Below, in pieces: positions 21,190-26,244 of a DNA stretch of 40,520 bases. Numbering within the stretch: position 1 is the first letter of the stretch; each line of letters starts with the position of its first letter. The notes under the pieces were generated by a model. That model did no database searches, was not told the DNA's origin, and was given only the letters and a program-made list of their open reading frames with translations. The stretch comes from Desulfuromonas sp. (GTDB lineage: Bacteria; Desulfobacterota; Desulfuromonadia; Desulfuromonadales; BM501): assembly GCF_002868845.1 (NCBI RefSeq), contig NZ_PKUB01000022.1:51407-91926 (forward strand). Direction: 5' to 3'. The position numbers and the translations under genes were made by a program.

Positions 21190-21804
21190 ATGCTTTTGTC
21201 CATCAATCCTGAAAACCCGCAACGTAGGCATATTCAAAAGGTGGTGGAATGCCTTCGGCAGGGAGGGGTCATCGCCTATCCTACCGACACCACCTATGGG
21301 ATCGGTTGCGACATATTTAACAGGAAGGGGGTCAAGAAGATTTACCAGATCAAGCAGCGCGATCCCCGCAAACCCTTTTCCTTTATTTGCGCCGATCTCT
21401 CCGATGCCGCCAACTATGCCCAGGTGAGCAATTTCGCATTTAAAACCATGCGGCGGCGACTCCCCGGGCCCTACACCTTCGTTCTCGATGCGACTCGGAC
21501 CGTTCCCGATCTGCTGACGACCCGGCAGAAGACGGTGGGGGTACGGATTCCCGACAATCCCATCGTCCTGTCAATCGTCCGGGAACTCGGGCATCCTCTC
21601 GTCACGACCAGCGCCAACATTGCCGGGGACGAACCCTACCACGACCCCGCCCAGATCGAAGACGCCATGGGGAAGGTTCTTGACCTGGTGGTCGACGGGG
21701 GAATCCTTCTCGGCGATCCCTCATCGGTCATCAGTCTGCTCGGCGATCGGCCCGATGTGCTCCGGCAGGGCAGCGGCGACACCTCCTGGATCCATTCACT
21801 CTGA
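21190..21804 (+). CDS. YrdC/Sua5-domain protein, YciO type
   Basis: Protein of 204 residues with a YrdC-like domain. Motifs are GGVIAYPTDTTYGIGCD, IKQRDPRKPFSFIC, LPGPYTFVLDAT, VGVRIPDNPI and LVTTSANIAG. The domain binds double-stranded RNA and nucleotides; TsaC/Sua5 enzymes make threonylcarbamoyl-AMP for tRNA t6A37. Length and the lack of a Sua5 C-terminal domain match YciO, whose activity is less certain than that of TsaC. The ATG at 21190 has AGGTG upstream; a GTG at 21181 is an alternative. Confidence 0.87.
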   Translation: MLLSINPENPQRRHIQKVVECLRQGGVIAYPTDTTYGIGCDIFNRKGVKKIYQIKQRDPRKPFSFICADLSDAANYAQVSNFAFKTMRRRLPGPYTFVLDATRTVPDLLTTRQKTVGVRIPDNPIVLSIVRELGHPLVTTSANIAGDEPYHDPAQIEDAMGKVLDLVVDGGILLGDPSSVISLLGDRPDVLRQGSGDTSWIHSL

Positions 21805-21835
21805 ACAAAAGCAACACCCATCTCCGGGATGAATC

Positions 21836-22228
21836 ATGCAGACTAAAGAAATCACTCTGGCTTTTTATGGCCGTAGTTTTCCTCGCAGCGATTGGCGCCA
21901 GGACCTGGACGAGGATGCACTGGACGCTTTTCTTGGGGATTTGCAGACCGAGCTGGCTCCGCTCCGGGTCGTGGTGCGCGTTTTGCGTGAGCCGGGGACG
22001 GTGCTTGACATAAGGGGCTACGGAGATCTTCTCAATACGGTGCGGCTGCGTTCACCGCGGGATGGGATCGGCAACCTCTGCCTCGGCCACATCATCGGCA
22101 CCAGTCCCAACCGGAACATCTTCGAGGATATCCGGAGAGGGGTCAACAGGGTCGCCTTTGCGCCCGAGACGGTCATGCCCGAAGACGGCAACAGAAAGGT
22201 CTGCCACAACTGCGGATGTGGGTGTTAG
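21836..22228 (+). CDS. Hypothetical protein with CHNCGCGC C-terminal tail
   Basis: Unrecognised protein of 130 residues. It has no signal peptide or transmembrane segment. The middle is ordinary soluble sequence (LRVVVRVLREPGTVLDIRGY, RDGIGNLCLGHIIGTSPNRN). The last eight residues, CHNCGCGC, carry four cysteines and a histidine, a strong metal or cluster ligand candidate, or a site for modification. The stop (TAG 22226-22228) overlaps the stop of the convergent cytochrome gene. It closes the dut operon. Confidence 0.78.
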   Translation: MQTKEITLAFYGRSFPRSDWRQDLDEDALDAFLGDLQTELAPLRVVVRVLREPGTVLDIRGYGDLLNTVRLRSPRDGIGNLCLGHIIGTSPNRNIFEDIRRGVNRVAFAPETVMPEDGNRKVCHNCGCGC

Positions 22229-22536
22229 TTTTCCTGGCGTGAGCGCAGGTGAAGAAGGAGTGAATTCATCTCCGTGGATTCCCCATCCATGAGCCGGCCC
22301 AAAAGGGCGCTCTGGAGGCAGGCATTAATGGCTGTCTTGAGGGATGCGTCATTCAGGCGGACGATATTCTTCAGTCCGCGGCTGACCGGATGGCAGGATG
22401 AGCAGCTATTGCCGCTGCTGCCCAGTTTCGGTGAATCGTAAAGGATCCGGCCAATATCGGCCGAGGGGCCTTCAAAGCCTATTGCAGCTGCGGCCCCAAA
22501 AAAGAGCAGGGCCAGAGACACTGTCCAGGAGCGCAT
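22225..22536 (-). CDS. Small monohaem c-type cytochrome, exported
   Basis: Protein of 103 residues. A clear Sec signal peptide (MRSWTVSLALLFFGAAAAIG) is followed by a single haem c motif CSSCH (residues 45-49) in the context SPKLGSSGNSCSSCHPVSRGL. The C-terminal half (INACLQSALLGRLMDGESTEM) is typical of class I-like cytochromes, and the Met may be the sixth ligand. It would act in periplasmic electron transfer. The ATG at 22536 has a GGGAGGTGG site; an upstream ATG would add residues before the signal. Its stop overlaps that of the facing gene by two bases, with no terminator between. Confidence 0.88.
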   Translation of the reverse strand: MRSWTVSLALLFFGAAAAIGFEGPSADIGRILYDSPKLGSSGNSCSSCHPVSRGLKNIVRLNDASLKTAINACLQSALLGRLMDGESTEMNSLLLHLRSRQEN

Positions 22537-22564
22537 CGGTCCACCTCCCGTTGGGTTCATGAGG

Positions 22565-22592
22565 AGCATATCGCTATTCCGGTAAGATGCAA
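22565..22592 (-). promoter_or_regulatory. Possible promoter for the cytochrome gene
   Basis: Read on the minus strand, TTGCAT (22592-22587), a 16-base spacer and TATGCT (22570-22565) form a weak-to-moderate promoter about 30 bases upstream of the ATG. The boxes resemble those proposed before the lipoprotein gene. Confidence 0.3.
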
Positions 22593-22622
22593 CTCGAAGC
22601 GGGTTGCGCTGAGGAATGACTG

Positions 22623-22646
22623 CCCGGCCACTTGGCCGGGTTTTTT
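22623..22646 (+). terminator. Intrinsic terminator, plus strand
   Basis: CCCGGCC (22623-22629), loop ACTT and GGCCGGG (22634-22640) are followed by six T. It faces plus-strand transcription, although the nearest plus-strand gene ended about 400 bases earlier at 22228. It may stop read-through from the dut operon across the cytochrome gene, or end a small RNA. Confidence 0.8.
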
Positions 22647-22661
22647 ATAGCATCATATTAA

Positions 22662-22699
22662 TGGGGGAAATCCCCTTGTGGGTAGGGAGATTTCCCCCA
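22662..22699. repeat. Paired dyads / 11-bp inverted repeat upstream of the sigma-54 promoter
   Basis: TGGGGGAAATC (22662-22672) and GATTTCCCCCA (22689-22699) are perfect inverted arms. Each arm also begins its own dyad: GGGGA-AA-TCCCC (22664-22675) and GGGA-GATT-TCCC (22685-22696). Their centres are 21 bases apart, about two helical turns, and roughly 240 bases upstream of the predicted transcript start. This is suitable for an enhancer-binding protein, though an RNA hairpin is an alternative. Confidence 0.5.
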
Positions 22700-22895
22700 A
22701 TCGCAGGGGTAATACGTTGCTCTGCGGTTCAAGCACGGAAGGGTTATGCCCAAGGTCTGGCGCCTGCACGGTACAGGGCTTTGGATTTAGGGTGGAGGTA
22801 TCTTTCTGGTATCAAAAGGAAAAATTGAATCTCGAACCGTTTTCGCCGTTGAAAGAGAGCAAGGAAGGGGGAGGGGGCGCAGGTCGGTCTGTTTT
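22700..22895. other. Stretch without a recognised gene
   Basis: The 448 bases between the cytochrome start (22536) and the Cys-rich gene (22985) hold the terminator, dyads and promoter listed separately. In 22700-22895 I see only short open frames with no family resemblance or ribosome site, a GGCGCC palindrome at about 22760-22765, and a purine-rich run (22856-22880). Confidence 0.5.
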
Positions 22896-22911
22896 TGGCA
22901 CAGGTGTTGCT
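22896..22911 (+). promoter_or_regulatory. Sigma-54 (RpoN) promoter
   Basis: The sequence is TGGCAC (22896-22901), five bases, then TTGCT (22907-22911). This matches the -24/-12 consensus TGGCAC-N5-TTGC[A/T], with exactly ten bases between the invariant GG and GC. The predicted start is about 22922, giving a leader of about 60 bases to the Cys-rich gene. Confidence 0.75.
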
Positions 22912-22984
22912 CTACAGCTATAGATTATTGAGCAGCGCTGGTGTAGAGCATTGGCTGGCCGAAGAAATACGAGGGAAGCAAGAG

Positions 22985-23200
22985 ATGGATACCGTCCCAG
23001 GAAAAGTCTCCCGTTGCAAAGATGCCTGTTCCTGCTCCTGTGGCGAGGGGAAGGGGAATTGTTCTGCTGAACAGTGCCCGGGGAACAATCTGGTCTACAT
23101 CAAGCCCCTGAACAAGGAGTCTTGTGAGCATCAGATGAACTTCGGGAAATACTGCATCTGCACCTGCCCGAAACGCAACGAGCTTTATCACGACCACTGA
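22985..23200 (+). CDS. Small cysteine-rich protein, sigma-54 controlled
   Basis: A 71-residue protein with ten cysteines (11, 15, 17, 19, 26, 31, 47, 57, 59, 61) and histidines at 49, 69 and 71. The Cys clusters are CKDACSCSCG near the start and YCICTCP near the end, with CxC pairs as in metallothioneins. There is no CxxCH haem motif, signal peptide or membrane segment. I do not recognise a family. The ATG at 22985 is preceded by GAGGGA about ten bases upstream. A consensus sigma-54 promoter lies upstream and a strong terminator downstream, so it is a one-gene regulated unit. Metal binding is inferred only from cysteine content. Confidence 0.72.
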   Translation: MDTVPGKVSRCKDACSCSCGEGKGNCSAEQCPGNNLVYIKPLNKESCEHQMNFGKYCICTCPKRNELYHDH

Positions 23201-23225
23201 GCCTCTCCGAGGTCCTTTCCTTAAT

Positions 23226-23267
23226 AAAAAAGACCCGGCCCGTCTGTGACGGACCGGGTCTTTTTTT
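23226..23267. terminator. Bidirectional intrinsic terminator
   Basis: AAAAAAGACCCGG (23226-23238) pairs with CCGGGTCTTTTTT (23254-23266), enclosing CCGTC-TGT-GACGG, with one C/A mismatch. The A run on one side and T run on the other make it work in both directions. It separates the Cys-rich gene from the converging pilT. Confidence 0.92.
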
Positions 23268-23322
23268 GTTGAAGCGGGACCACCACCGCTATAGAGCCTC
23301 TCTCCCGCCGTCCGGCCCTTCG

Positions 23323-24393
23323 TTAGCTGGTAAAGGTCAGTTTTCGTTCCAGGTCGAGCGAATTGCTCACCCGCTTGGCCTCTTCCAGGGTAATGACCTT
23401 CTGCTTGCACAGGTGAATCAGGTGCTGGTCCATGGACTGCATGTGATACTGCGCCCGGCCATTCTCGATGTGTTTTCTGATCTCCTCGAGGCGTCCTTCC
23501 CGAATACAGGCTTGGATGGTCGTTGTCGAGCGCATCACCTCGACGACCGGCAGGATGTGCTCACCGCTCTTGTCTTTGATGAGGCGCAGGGAAACGGTTG
23601 CCACGAGGATGTCGGCCAGTCGCTGACGAATAATTTCCTGTCCCTCCGGGGGGAAGTTGCCGACAATGCGGTTGATGGTCGAGACGGCATTCTGGGTGTG
23701 GAGGGTCGAAAGGACGAGGTGGCCCGTCTCGGCCGCCTTGAGGCAGGACTCGATCGTTTCGGCGTCGCGCATCTCCCCGACCATGATGACATCCGGGTCC
23801 ATTCGCAGGGAGGCTCTCAGGGCGGTGCTGAAATCTTCGGTGTCGATGCCGACCTCTCTCTGAATGATGCAGGAGTTCTTCGACGCGAAGAGAAATTCGA
23901 TGGGGTCTTCGATCGTGACGATATTGTAATTGAACTTCTCGTTGATGAAGCGAAGCATCGAGGCCAGGGTCGTCGATTTGCCGTTGCCGGTCGGGCCCGT
24001 GACCAGGATCAGGCCGTTCGGGGCCTTTACAATCTCGCCGAGCACTGGGGGGAGGTGCAGGTCCTTGAAGTTGGCGACATGGGGCGGGATGACACGCATG
24101 ACAATGCCGACATGGCCCCTCTGCCGGAAAATGCTCGTTCGAAACCGACCGCCGTTCGGCAGGGAATATGATGTGTCGATTTCCCTGAGGGCATCGGGGA
24201 GCGTGCGTCCGTTGTGCTCCATGATGCAGCTGGCGATGAACTGGGTATCCTCGGGGGCCAGGTTCTGGAGTTTGGAACGAACCAGCTGTCCGCGCCCTCT
24301 GAAGAAGGGAGGGTTGCCGACTTCGAAATGAACATCCGAAACCCTTTTTTCAAAGGCGATCTCTAGGATCTGGTTCAAGGTCTTTATGTTCAT
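23323..24393 (-). CDS. pilT: Twitching motility ATPase, PilT family
   Basis: Secretion-type hexameric ATPase of 356 residues that powers retraction of type IV pili. Walker A is GPTGNGKSTT, the Asp box is TIEDPIEF, Walker B is DVIMVGEMRDAETI and the His box is TGHLVLSTLHTQNA. The N-terminal domain (1-100) starts LNQILEIAFEKRVSDVHFEVG. The ATG at 24393 follows a GGGGG-type site. No pilin or assembly genes are nearby. It lies 42 bases downstream of the PATAN-domain gene, probably in one transcript. A PilU-like paralogue role cannot be excluded. Confidence 0.9.
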   Translation of the reverse strand: MNIKTLNQILEIAFEKRVSDVHFEVGNPPFFRGRGQLVRSKLQNLAPEDTQFIASCIMEHNGRTLPDALREIDTSYSLPNGGRFRTSIFRQRGHVGIVMRVIPPHVANFKDLHLPPVLGEIVKAPNGLILVTGPTGNGKSTTLASMLRFINEKFNYNIVTIEDPIEFLFASKNSCIIQREVGIDTEDFSTALRASLRMDPDVIMVGEMRDAETIESCLKAAETGHLVLSTLHTQNAVSTINRIVGNFPPEGQEIIRQRLADILVATVSLRLIKDKSGEHILPVVEVMRSTTTIQACIREGRLEEIRKHIENGRAQYHMQSMDQHLIHLCKQKVITLEEAKRVSNSLDLERKLTFTS

Positions 24394-24435
24394 TGCAACC
24401 CCCTTTGGTCTGTCGAATAGGAGCAAAAATCCGGT

Positions 24436-26244
24436 CTACTGTTGGGAGACCTTTTTGAGTTGTTTGCGGCAAAGAGCGTTTTCCAGAACCAGTCCCGCAT
24501 GAGACGCGAGGATCTCCAGGTCCGGCCCCGGAAAGGGTGAAGGCGCGTTCTGCCCGGAGTCCCCATAGATGAGGGCGACGGGCTTGCCATGGATCTTCAA
24601 CGCCAGAAGGAGGGCCTCCGAATGCCGGGGCGGTCCGATGGCTTCAAATAGAGGTCTCGTGAACTGGTTGTCGACAATTTCCCCGAAAAACAGGCCCCCG
24701 GTCTCGACCAGGCGGAGAGCGGCCTTCGAGCCTGTCAGGGGGATTCTCAGATCAAGGGAATTGGATTTGCCTTTGCCGGCCTCTCCTCCGACCCCGATCA
24801 CCTTCTCGGCGAGCAGTTCGTTTCTGCCGACAATGAAAGTGATCGCCCGCTCGAACGTCTCTGCCGCACGCCGAAGAAGCACGAAGGAGATCTCCGAAGC
24901 ATCTTTGAGGCCCCGGAGTGATTCGACAGCGCCCAGCAGTTCGGTGCCGGCCTGCCCGTTCTTCGGTTCGGACGGCCTTTTTAAATAGGCATGGAAAGCC
25001 TCAAGGAACTCAATGGTGTCCTCGGCGAATGCTTCGTCTTTTTCACCTCTGGCGGGCCTGGGAATCACCGCTGCAATGCCATCGCGATAGGCTTGCAGGG
25101 AGGATCGGAGATCGTCCGGAGGGGCGAATCGAACGATGGGGGACTCTGGGAATATCTCTGCGAGCTGGGTCTGAAGGGCGGCTCTTTTCCCCTGGGATAA
25201 AGCATCCTTCGCCTCGAGGGGCCCATCGAAAACGAGAAGGGGCACGGCGCCGGCTGGCAGAGACCGGTCCAAAGCGGGGGTCAGGTCCAGTTCATCGCCG
25301 ATGAGAGTAACGCCGATACCCTCGTGCCTGCAGATCGTTTCGGCGGCATGGCCCAAGAATTCGTCTTCGGTGACGAGGATGAGGGGGCGGGTCCGTGGTC
25401 CCTTCATGGCTCTGCCGGCGCCGGTGGCCACTTCGGGGAACCCCTCCAAAAAGGATACGAGTTTCTGCTGATCGCCGACGGCGAGGCCTTCGAGGGCCTT
25501 GCTCACTTTGGTGGCATGGCCTTCTGCCGGGTCGAGACCTCCGAGGCTGGAAAACACATCCGGAATTTTCTGCTCCAGCAGGTCGAGGTCTGCCAGACCG
25601 AGGTCGACGGCAGAGAGCGAAGGATCGGCATCTTCCTGGTCTTCGTTGCCACCCTCGGGAAGGAGGGGCTCGTCCGCTTCCTCAAAGGCGTCTTCGATGT
25701 AAAAATCTTCGTCACCGATTTCGCCGTCCCGTTTCTTCTCGTCGTAGATTCGCAGGGCATCCATTAATACCCTCTGGGTGTCCAGATTGAAATCCTGGTC
25801 AAACTTCGCAGGGTAATATTCATATTCGTCGGATGCTTTTATCGAATCGACATCGAGGATGAACGTCCCGCTTTTCCATGTCAGTATTTCGACGACGGTC
25901 ATCTCGATCAGGTATTCGAGGCCCTTGTATCCATCATCCCTGTCGATTTGACCGTCTTCAATCAAAGTCGCTATGAGAGGTTTTTTATTCTTCCCGGCAG
26001 CCTTTTGAGCCGCGAGCGCTTTTCTCAGTACTTCGGTGGTGATGAACTCCATTTCGACAAGGATTTGGCCGATGCGGATATTGTTCTTGGAATGATTGGC
26101 GCTGACGATGAAGCCGTCCCTGAAAACGAGCTGACTTTCCCCCTTGCCACTTTTGACGCAAAGGGTGCCCGACTTCCTGGTCGAATGCAGCAGTTGAACG
26201 ACGTCAACAATGGGCAGGTGCTCCAGGTCGCCAGTAAAGGACAT
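24436..26244 (-). CDS. DUF4388/PATAN-domain regulatory protein
   Basis: Protein of 602 residues. Residues 1-115 form a DUF4388 (PATAN) domain (MSFTGDLEHLPIVDVVQLLH, SGTLCVKSGKGESQLVFRDG), followed by an IGQILVEMEFITTEVLRKAL segment. An acidic linker (about 180-270) leads to a receiver-like part (about 300-420; ILVTEDEFL, then LLVFDG), which looks degenerate. A GAF-like C-terminal part (about 460-595) ends in LEILASHAGLVLENAL. PATAN domains occur in response regulators, some tied to pili and motility; the neighbour here is pilT. The ATG at 26244 is preferred because MSFTGDLEHLP is the domain start and GAGGAT precedes it. The signal it senses is unknown. Confidence 0.82.
   Translation of the reverse strand: MSFTGDLEHLPIVDVVQLLHSTRKSGTLCVKSGKGESQLVFRDGFIVSANHSKNNIRIGQILVEMEFITTEVLRKALAAQKAAGKNKKPLIATLIEDGQIDRDDGYKGLEYLIEMTVVEILTWKSGTFILDVDSIKASDEYEYYPAKFDQDFNLDTQRVLMDALRIYDEKKRDGEIGDEDFYIEDAFEEADEPLLPEGGNEDQEDADPSLSAVDLGLADLDLLEQKIPDVFSSLGGLDPAEGHATKVSKALEGLAVGDQQKLVSFLEGFPEVATGAGRAMKGPRTRPLILVTEDEFLGHAAETICRHEGIGVTLIGDELDLTPALDRSLPAGAVPLLVFDGPLEAKDALSQGKRAALQTQLAEIFPESPIVRFAPPDDLRSSLQAYRDGIAAVIPRPARGEKDEAFAEDTIEFLEAFHAYLKRPSEPKNGQAGTELLGAVESLRGLKDASEISFVLLRRAAETFERAITFIVGRNELLAEKVIGVGGEAGKGKSNSLDLRIPLTGSKAALRLVETGGLFFGEIVDNQFTRPLFEAIGPPRHSEALLLALKIHGKPVALIYGDSGQNAPSPFPGPDLEILASHAGLVLENALCRKQLKKVSQQ

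Follow-up and report, generated by a model that had tools for sequence, protein, structure and literature searches.

The window considered in this study (the whole stretch of Desulfuromonas sp. DNA that was analysed, 40,520 nt) carries on its forward strand, at 22985–23200, a gene for a 71-residue protein with ten cysteines. The protein is a member of an undescribed family, found across many anaerobic bacteria as well as some archaea, whose members are typically about 75–85 residues long and are marked by six cysteines and the motif CxCPxRxE. The family is unnamed and has a reproducible link to sigma-54 signalling. The reading that I favour, with moderate confidence and from sequence, is that the product is a folded cytosolic protein, probably binding zinc or an iron-sulphur cluster, and made in response to a signal sensed by an activator.

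The coding region runs from the ATG at 22985 to the TGA at 23200, preceded on the same strand by a ribosome-binding-like sequence, GAGGGAAG, at 22971–22978. A preliminary description of this DNA spoke of ten cysteines and three histidines in 71 residues, of CxC pairs at each end, and of a single small gene closed off by a strong terminator. Translation gives the same composition, the sequence has C-x-C runs at both termini (CSCSC and CICTC), and there is no CxxCH haem motif in the protein. It has no evident signal sequence, and a cytosolic location is presumed. Directly behind the stop codon lies a small hairpin (23201–23213, forward strand), followed by a strong intrinsic terminator (23231–23267, forward strand) between two convergent genes. 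The RNA fold of 23201–23275 has an energy of -34.7 kcal/mol (z -5.84) and includes a run of T at 23261–23267. Because the next gene downstream, encoding an ATPase with a T2SSE domain according to Pfam (23323–24426, reverse strand), is convergent, the gene stands alone. The four neighbours in the window that were scanned against Pfam gave, in turn, no match, a weak match to di-haem peroxidase, T2SSE and DUF4388. The weak match, below the cut-off, belongs to a 114-residue protein with one CxxCH (22228–22569, reverse strand).

Membership in the family was assessed with a profile from which the window protein had been left out. Against this profile the protein scores 49.8 bits, as compared to a maximum of 22.9 bits amongst 1000 shuffles with cysteines held in place and 10.6 bits amongst 1000 full shuffles, none of them reaching 49.8. 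The similarity to the family thus exceeds what cysteine content provides. When 136 genomes of the window's order were searched with the single sequence, nine had a match, the protein's own genome included (those in G019 and G045 are weak and contain internal stop codons). With a profile, 20 of the same 136 genomes had a match, again counting its own genome and one sequence with an internal stop (G085). Across the phylum, an eight-row profile found matches in 11 of 395 genomes, its own included, the weakest with an internal stop. The relatives searched included no genome of the window's own genus or family. The earlier suggestion of a profile search has therefore produced homologues, and the cysteine pattern is conserved in them.

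Named genome contigs provided 33 family loci, whose titles refer to Deltaproteobacteria, Desulfuromonadales, Syntrophaceae, Pseudomonadota, Nitrospirae, Deferribacteres, Bacteroidetes, Melioribacteraceae, Neomarinimicrobiota, Omnitrophota, Binatota, Methanoperedens and other archaea. Two sets were drawn from these loci, each with the window protein added: A4, with 30 of the 33 (all except L056, L062 and L065), and A5, with 31 of the 33 (all except L043 and L062). Of 295 genomes from the phylum to which the Nitrospiraceae genome G525 belongs, 21 have the family. Some genomes have several members (six matches in G523, five in G212). One copy, found as L007, L033 and L062 (the last from Desulfuromonas sp. 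BM304), has no in-frame counterpart of the first conserved cysteines and is perhaps a broken gene. Viral contigs gave 19 pattern matches, none of which was confirmed, and plasmids, searched with the relative L059 only, gave no match.

Existing collections provide no name for the family. The window protein matched no family in Pfam or NCBIfam at E-values up to 10, in a search where the filters of HMMER drop most weak matches. A scan of 31 members against the same collections gave no consistent match, only weak and scattered ones: DUF7107 in seven of the 31 (best E 0.12), the Elf1 zinc ribbon in three (best E 0.0035), and the rest in one or two members each. PHROGs gave no match for any of the 31, nor for the window protein. 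The window protein had no match by sequence in the PDB, and the single match found there with the family profile (E 2.3) is meaningless. In Pfam and NCBIfam at E up to 10, then, no curated model marks the window protein as a prokaryotic metallothionein. A literature search that included motif strings, with most subscription journals lying outside it, found no account of the family, nor does the searched portion of PMC12316311 contain a description of a six-cysteine CxCPxRxE family.

What defines the family is best seen in an alignment of 85 members (the window protein included), in the numbering of the relative L041. Six cysteines are nearly invariant: C16 (in 80 of the 85), C22 (85), C31 (85), C52 (84), C64 (85) and C66 (82). 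So are three other residues, P67 (82), R69 (85) and E71 (80). Positions 43, 54, 58 and 73 are mostly aromatic, their commonest residues found in 68, 74, 60 and 65 members, respectively, and position 59 is mostly glycine (71/85). The C-terminal motif may be written CxCPxRxE[LI][YF]. The window protein has all six family cysteines in register (its C11, C17, C26, C47, C59 and C61), has the equivalents of R69 and E71, and shows the motif as CTCPKRNELY. At family position 54 it has histidine rather than tyrosine. Of its remaining cysteines, C31 falls in a facultative column, 36, with cysteine in 32 of 85 members, and C15, C19 and C57 do not belong to the family set. Two further positions are nearly exclusive of each other: C29 occurs alone in 28 members, C46 alone in 33, both in one and neither in 23 (p = 2.7e-7, 85 members), a pattern that suggests one structural site served from two places. 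The window protein lacks cysteine at both.

The structure predicted for L041 combines two beta hairpins with a C-terminal helix starting at CPxR (mean pLDDT 78.6, pTM 0.61), two of its five models reaching a pLDDT of 77–79 and three 53–60. The window protein's own model is poor, with a mean pLDDT of 44.6. Because the best match of the L041 model to folds in the PDB has an E-value of 2.0, and none has a Z of at least 2, no fold name can be assigned. The conserved residues other than cysteine, taken together with the L041 model, point to a folded domain, and the cysteines suggest that it may bind metal, either as zinc or in an iron-sulphur cluster.

The metal might instead be bound without such a domain, by a flexible chain rich in thiols that is made under metal stress and takes up several metal ions, in the manner of a metallothionein. 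Ten cysteines in 71 residues, the C-x-C runs at both ends and the three cysteines beyond the family set would suit such a buffer, and the poor model of the window protein could reflect flexibility. The conservation of arginine, glutamate, proline, glycine and aromatic positions, however, is unlike what selection for thiols alone would leave, and L041 is predicted to have a defined fold. Against the idea stand also the empty Pfam/NCBIfam search (tempered by the filtering of weak matches) and the four scanned neighbours in the window, none of them a known metal-handling protein. Since the R, E, P and aromatic positions are conserved, a folded domain that works with a partner is more likely than a metal buffer, and I regard the metallothionein-like reading as unlikely. 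The preliminary description had guessed at a metallothionein-like, metal-buffering or cluster-carrying protein. A protein that carries a cluster or binds metal is still a reasonable idea; the metallothionein-like part is the weaker, six of the ten cysteines being family-wide.

The genes around family members provide a second line of evidence. In bacteria, 21 of 119 immediate neighbours have kinase, receiver or activator domains, as compared to 2 of 63 genes at least four places away (p = 0.003); this test used 72 distinct family proteins as non-overlapping ORFs, missed some loci (e.g., L150 and L153), drew its kinase, receiver and activator profiles in part from proteins of the loci under comparison, and left kinship among loci uncorrected. 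None of the ten archaeal loci examined has a signalling gene as neighbour. In several Nitrospirota (L055, L153 and L154) the order is kinase, activator, family gene, small gene and a gene of the sigma-70 family. Pfam identifies the kinase domains at L055 and L153 and the sigma-70 domains at L055 and L147 only, and finds no match for the small gene of L055. Taken more broadly, six Nitrospirota loci (L055, L152, L153, L154, L147 and L148) have a sigma-70-family gene after the family gene, the small gene intervening in some of them. In Methanoperedens (L042, L043, L045 and L047), the family gene directly follows a gene with a Vms1-like release-factor domain (seen by Pfam at L042 and L045), upstream of which lie genes that we take to encode exosome components and L37Ae. 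At L066 (3623–4936) a radical SAM protein is two genes upstream, with a receiver-LuxR regulator between.

The company of sensor kinases, response regulators and activators, frequent in bacteria, is what one might expect also of a thiol/disulphide redox or regulatory protein that works without metal, such as a switch giving feedback to the kinase or activator. Six near-invariant cysteines with C-x-C-P also fit a metal site, however, and the organisms that carry the family are largely anaerobes, with a reducing cytosol, a poor setting for such a switch. That the L041 model matches no solved fold, redox folds included, weighs weakly in the same direction. I consider a metal-free thiol switch improbable.

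I turn now to the control of the gene in the window. The sequence TGGCACAGGTGTTGCT (22896–22911, forward strand) is an exact match to a sigma-54-type -24/-12 promoter, with GG at 22897–22898 and GC at 22909–22910, a spacing of ten bases, in the correct orientation and 89 bases before the ATG. It is the sole match with zero mismatches to TGGCACN5TTGC in the 40.5-kb window. When up to two mismatches are permitted, 28 matches are found where shuffled sequences lead one to expect 33.8, and since matches of that quality are no commoner than chance, only the perfect one carries weight. In the whole genome of 3.70 Mb, TGGCAYN5TTGCW occurs 15 times, versus three for the reversed control, and several of the other sites (on contigs C4, C13, C14 and C16) are by their coordinates near activator genes. 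A comparison of sites upstream of 34 genes singled out the window gene and three relatives, for which 2, 4, 4 and 6 of 400 random windows were as good. A search of 21500–25000 for sigma-70-like promoters found none (0.8 expected). The consensus promoter with exact spacing claimed beforehand is therefore present, and the claim that went with it, control of the gene by sigma-54, is well supported by the perfect site and by the recurrence of such sites in the family. Expression of the gene is accordingly likely to be regulated.

By the standard geometry of sigma-54 promoters, transcription begins about 12 bases downstream of the -12 GC, which would place the start near 22922 on the forward strand. 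A 9-nt inverted repeat (22908–22950) spans the expected start. Another inverted repeat, of 14 nt with near-palindromic arms, occupies non-coding DNA at 22662–22699, about 200 bases upstream of the promoter, and is a candidate activator site. A loose version of it, GGGGAWWTYYCCC, occurs 15 times in the genome and twice in the control, and the genome-wide search connected it with no activator.

The host genome has 21 matches to the sigma-54 interaction domain (PF00158), 19 of them strong and two weak (31.6 and 27.3 bits), and sigma-54 itself is implied by their presence. None of the 21 is on the window's contig (C22). The genome has no clear orthologue of the activators that are linked to family genes elsewhere: the best candidates have 46% identity, or 51% over partial length, and sit amongst many similar paralogues.

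To place the promoter in the context of the family, a sigma-54 matrix written from consensus frequencies was run over the 260 bases before each of 95 distinct family genes (the window gene included). Thirteen of the 95 score at least 11, a threshold chosen after a gap between 11.3 and 9.6 was visible, and the window gene scores the highest. The same threshold is reached by 3 of 95 stretches on the other strand, by 2 of 95 downstream stretches and by 2.5% of random windows (2.4 expected). Promoters of this type thus recur in the family. The remaining 82 genes have no strong site within the 260 bases, though three of these have one further up.

High scores go along with activators. In 8 of the 13 high scorers and 3 of the other 82 genes, an activator (called at E 1e-100 or better with a home-made profile) precedes the family gene in the same orientation, at a distance of no more than about 550 bases (Fisher p = 1.5e-6), kinship among the loci being left uncorrected in these counts as well. 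A tree of 85 members, from which shorter or weaker rows were dropped, places the window protein, with weak support (47/76), on a long branch in the half where most sigma-54-controlled members are found. Inside this weakly supported half the contrast is 8 of 11 versus 3 of 21 (p = 0.0018, from counts entered by hand from the promoter scan and the tree). The three exceptions, L093, L094 and L103, have a long gap between activator and family gene. When the full gaps were rescanned, after the first count, they proved to hold the sites TGGCATGCTTCTTGTA, TGGCACGTTTCTTGTT and TGGCATGTTTCTTGTT, 315–335 bases before the gene, with scores of 12.6–13.9 (best on the other strand, 2.2–6.5) and close in sequence to TGGCACATTTCTTGTT of the relative L055. 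Since each of these gaps holds a site, a site stands between activator and family gene in all 11 cases where an activator closely precedes the gene, in three of them by the longer, later scan only.

Five high scorers have no activator upstream: the window gene, L011, L101, L034 and L125. L011, from the window's order, heads a cluster consisting of the family gene, a gene with a phosphoribosyltransferase domain and a PAS activator. L101 heads a cluster in which genes for a phosphonate-binding-type protein and a kinase come next, and then a regulator similar to the activator of L057, cut off after its first 61 residues by the end of the contig. For L034 and L125 no activator is found in the stretches read (L143 and L144). 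Within the same order, six genomes of genus g13 have distant members of the family divergent from an activator-type gene, the adjoining protein at L161 (the one taken to Pfam) having two GAF domains and a sigma-54 activator domain. The four g13 genomes that were scored have no strong site (scores -0.6 to 3.9).

The activators linked to or near family genes differ in make-up (receiver-PAS-AAA-HTH, receiver-AAA-HTH, PAS-AAA-HTH and GAF-GAF-AAA), with identities of about 56–74% within groups and about 30–50% between groups. They are thus several distinct groups rather than one lineage. Archaea are not known to have sigma-54, and because they carry clear relatives nonetheless, the biochemical role of the protein must be independent of the route by which its gene is switched on. 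Control by sigma-54 is a trait of certain lineages rather than the core function of the family.

It may still be asked whether the -24/-12 site in the window is a chance match and the gene transcribed by other means, given that the contig has no activator gene and that the upstream scan turned up no strong site for most of the family. A perfect and correctly oriented site 89 bases before the ATG, the excess of such sites in the genome over the reversed control, their recurrence in the family and the lack of a sigma-70-like promoter between 21500 and 25000 make this very improbable. That the product is a precursor peptide modified by a maturase, as the radical SAM protein near L066 might bring to mind, can be set aside almost entirely: conservation extends along the full length in bacteria and archaea, with no division into leader and core, and such a neighbour is confirmed by Pfam at L066 only.

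On the favoured reading, that of a folded metal-binding protein made on an activator's signal, a sensor would activate an enhancer-binding protein, which in turn would permit sigma-54 polymerase to open the promoter at 22896–22911, the gene being silent before. The single-gene transcript would end at the terminator. In its product, the six near-invariant cysteines and the CxCPxRxE[LI][YF] segment would form a small domain, most likely holding zinc or an iron-sulphur cluster, and the protein would probably serve as an adaptor, a feedback partner or a metal- or redox-protective factor of the signalling circuit. More tentatively, and with some doubt, the family may have come under diverse sigma-54 activators several times over because signal transduction or transcription is its direct target. 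For example, a partner loaded with metal or changed in redox state might reset or shut off the sensor-activator pair; in several Nitrospirota the gene is beside that of a sigma-70-family protein.

Small proteins that lack a family model usually stay "hypothetical", and here such an orphan joins a widespread six-cysteine family. If its members bind metal and feed back on their circuits, they would represent a new type of signalling output; if they are protective, they would put a name to a stress response in many uncultured anaerobes. The linked units of sensor, activator, promoter and protein are a directly testable system.

The nearest known systems each share some of these features. The sigma-54 regulons of Geobacter sulfurreducens (PMC2725144) and Desulfovibrio vulgaris (PMC4641369) likewise concern related anaerobes with sigma-54 promoters, some of which, in the parts of those accounts considered here, precede hypothetical proteins; in their main texts as searched by term, no word begins with "cysteine", and the passages considered name no such target. 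Metallothioneins of the SmtA/BmtA type resemble the window protein in being small and cysteine-rich with C-x-C motifs. The window protein differs from them in having no profile match, conserved residues other than cysteine, and a sigma-54 promoter, whereas metallothioneins of that type are controlled by a metal repressor. The ZraSR-ZraP system of enterobacteria, which responds to zinc, is alike in pairing a sensor kinase with a sigma-54 activator to control the production of a small metal-binding protein. ZraP is periplasmic and of another family, unlike the window protein with its lack of an evident signal sequence. Because small metal-type proteins controlled by sigma-54 two-component systems are already known, ZraP being one, the arrangement described here is not categorically new.
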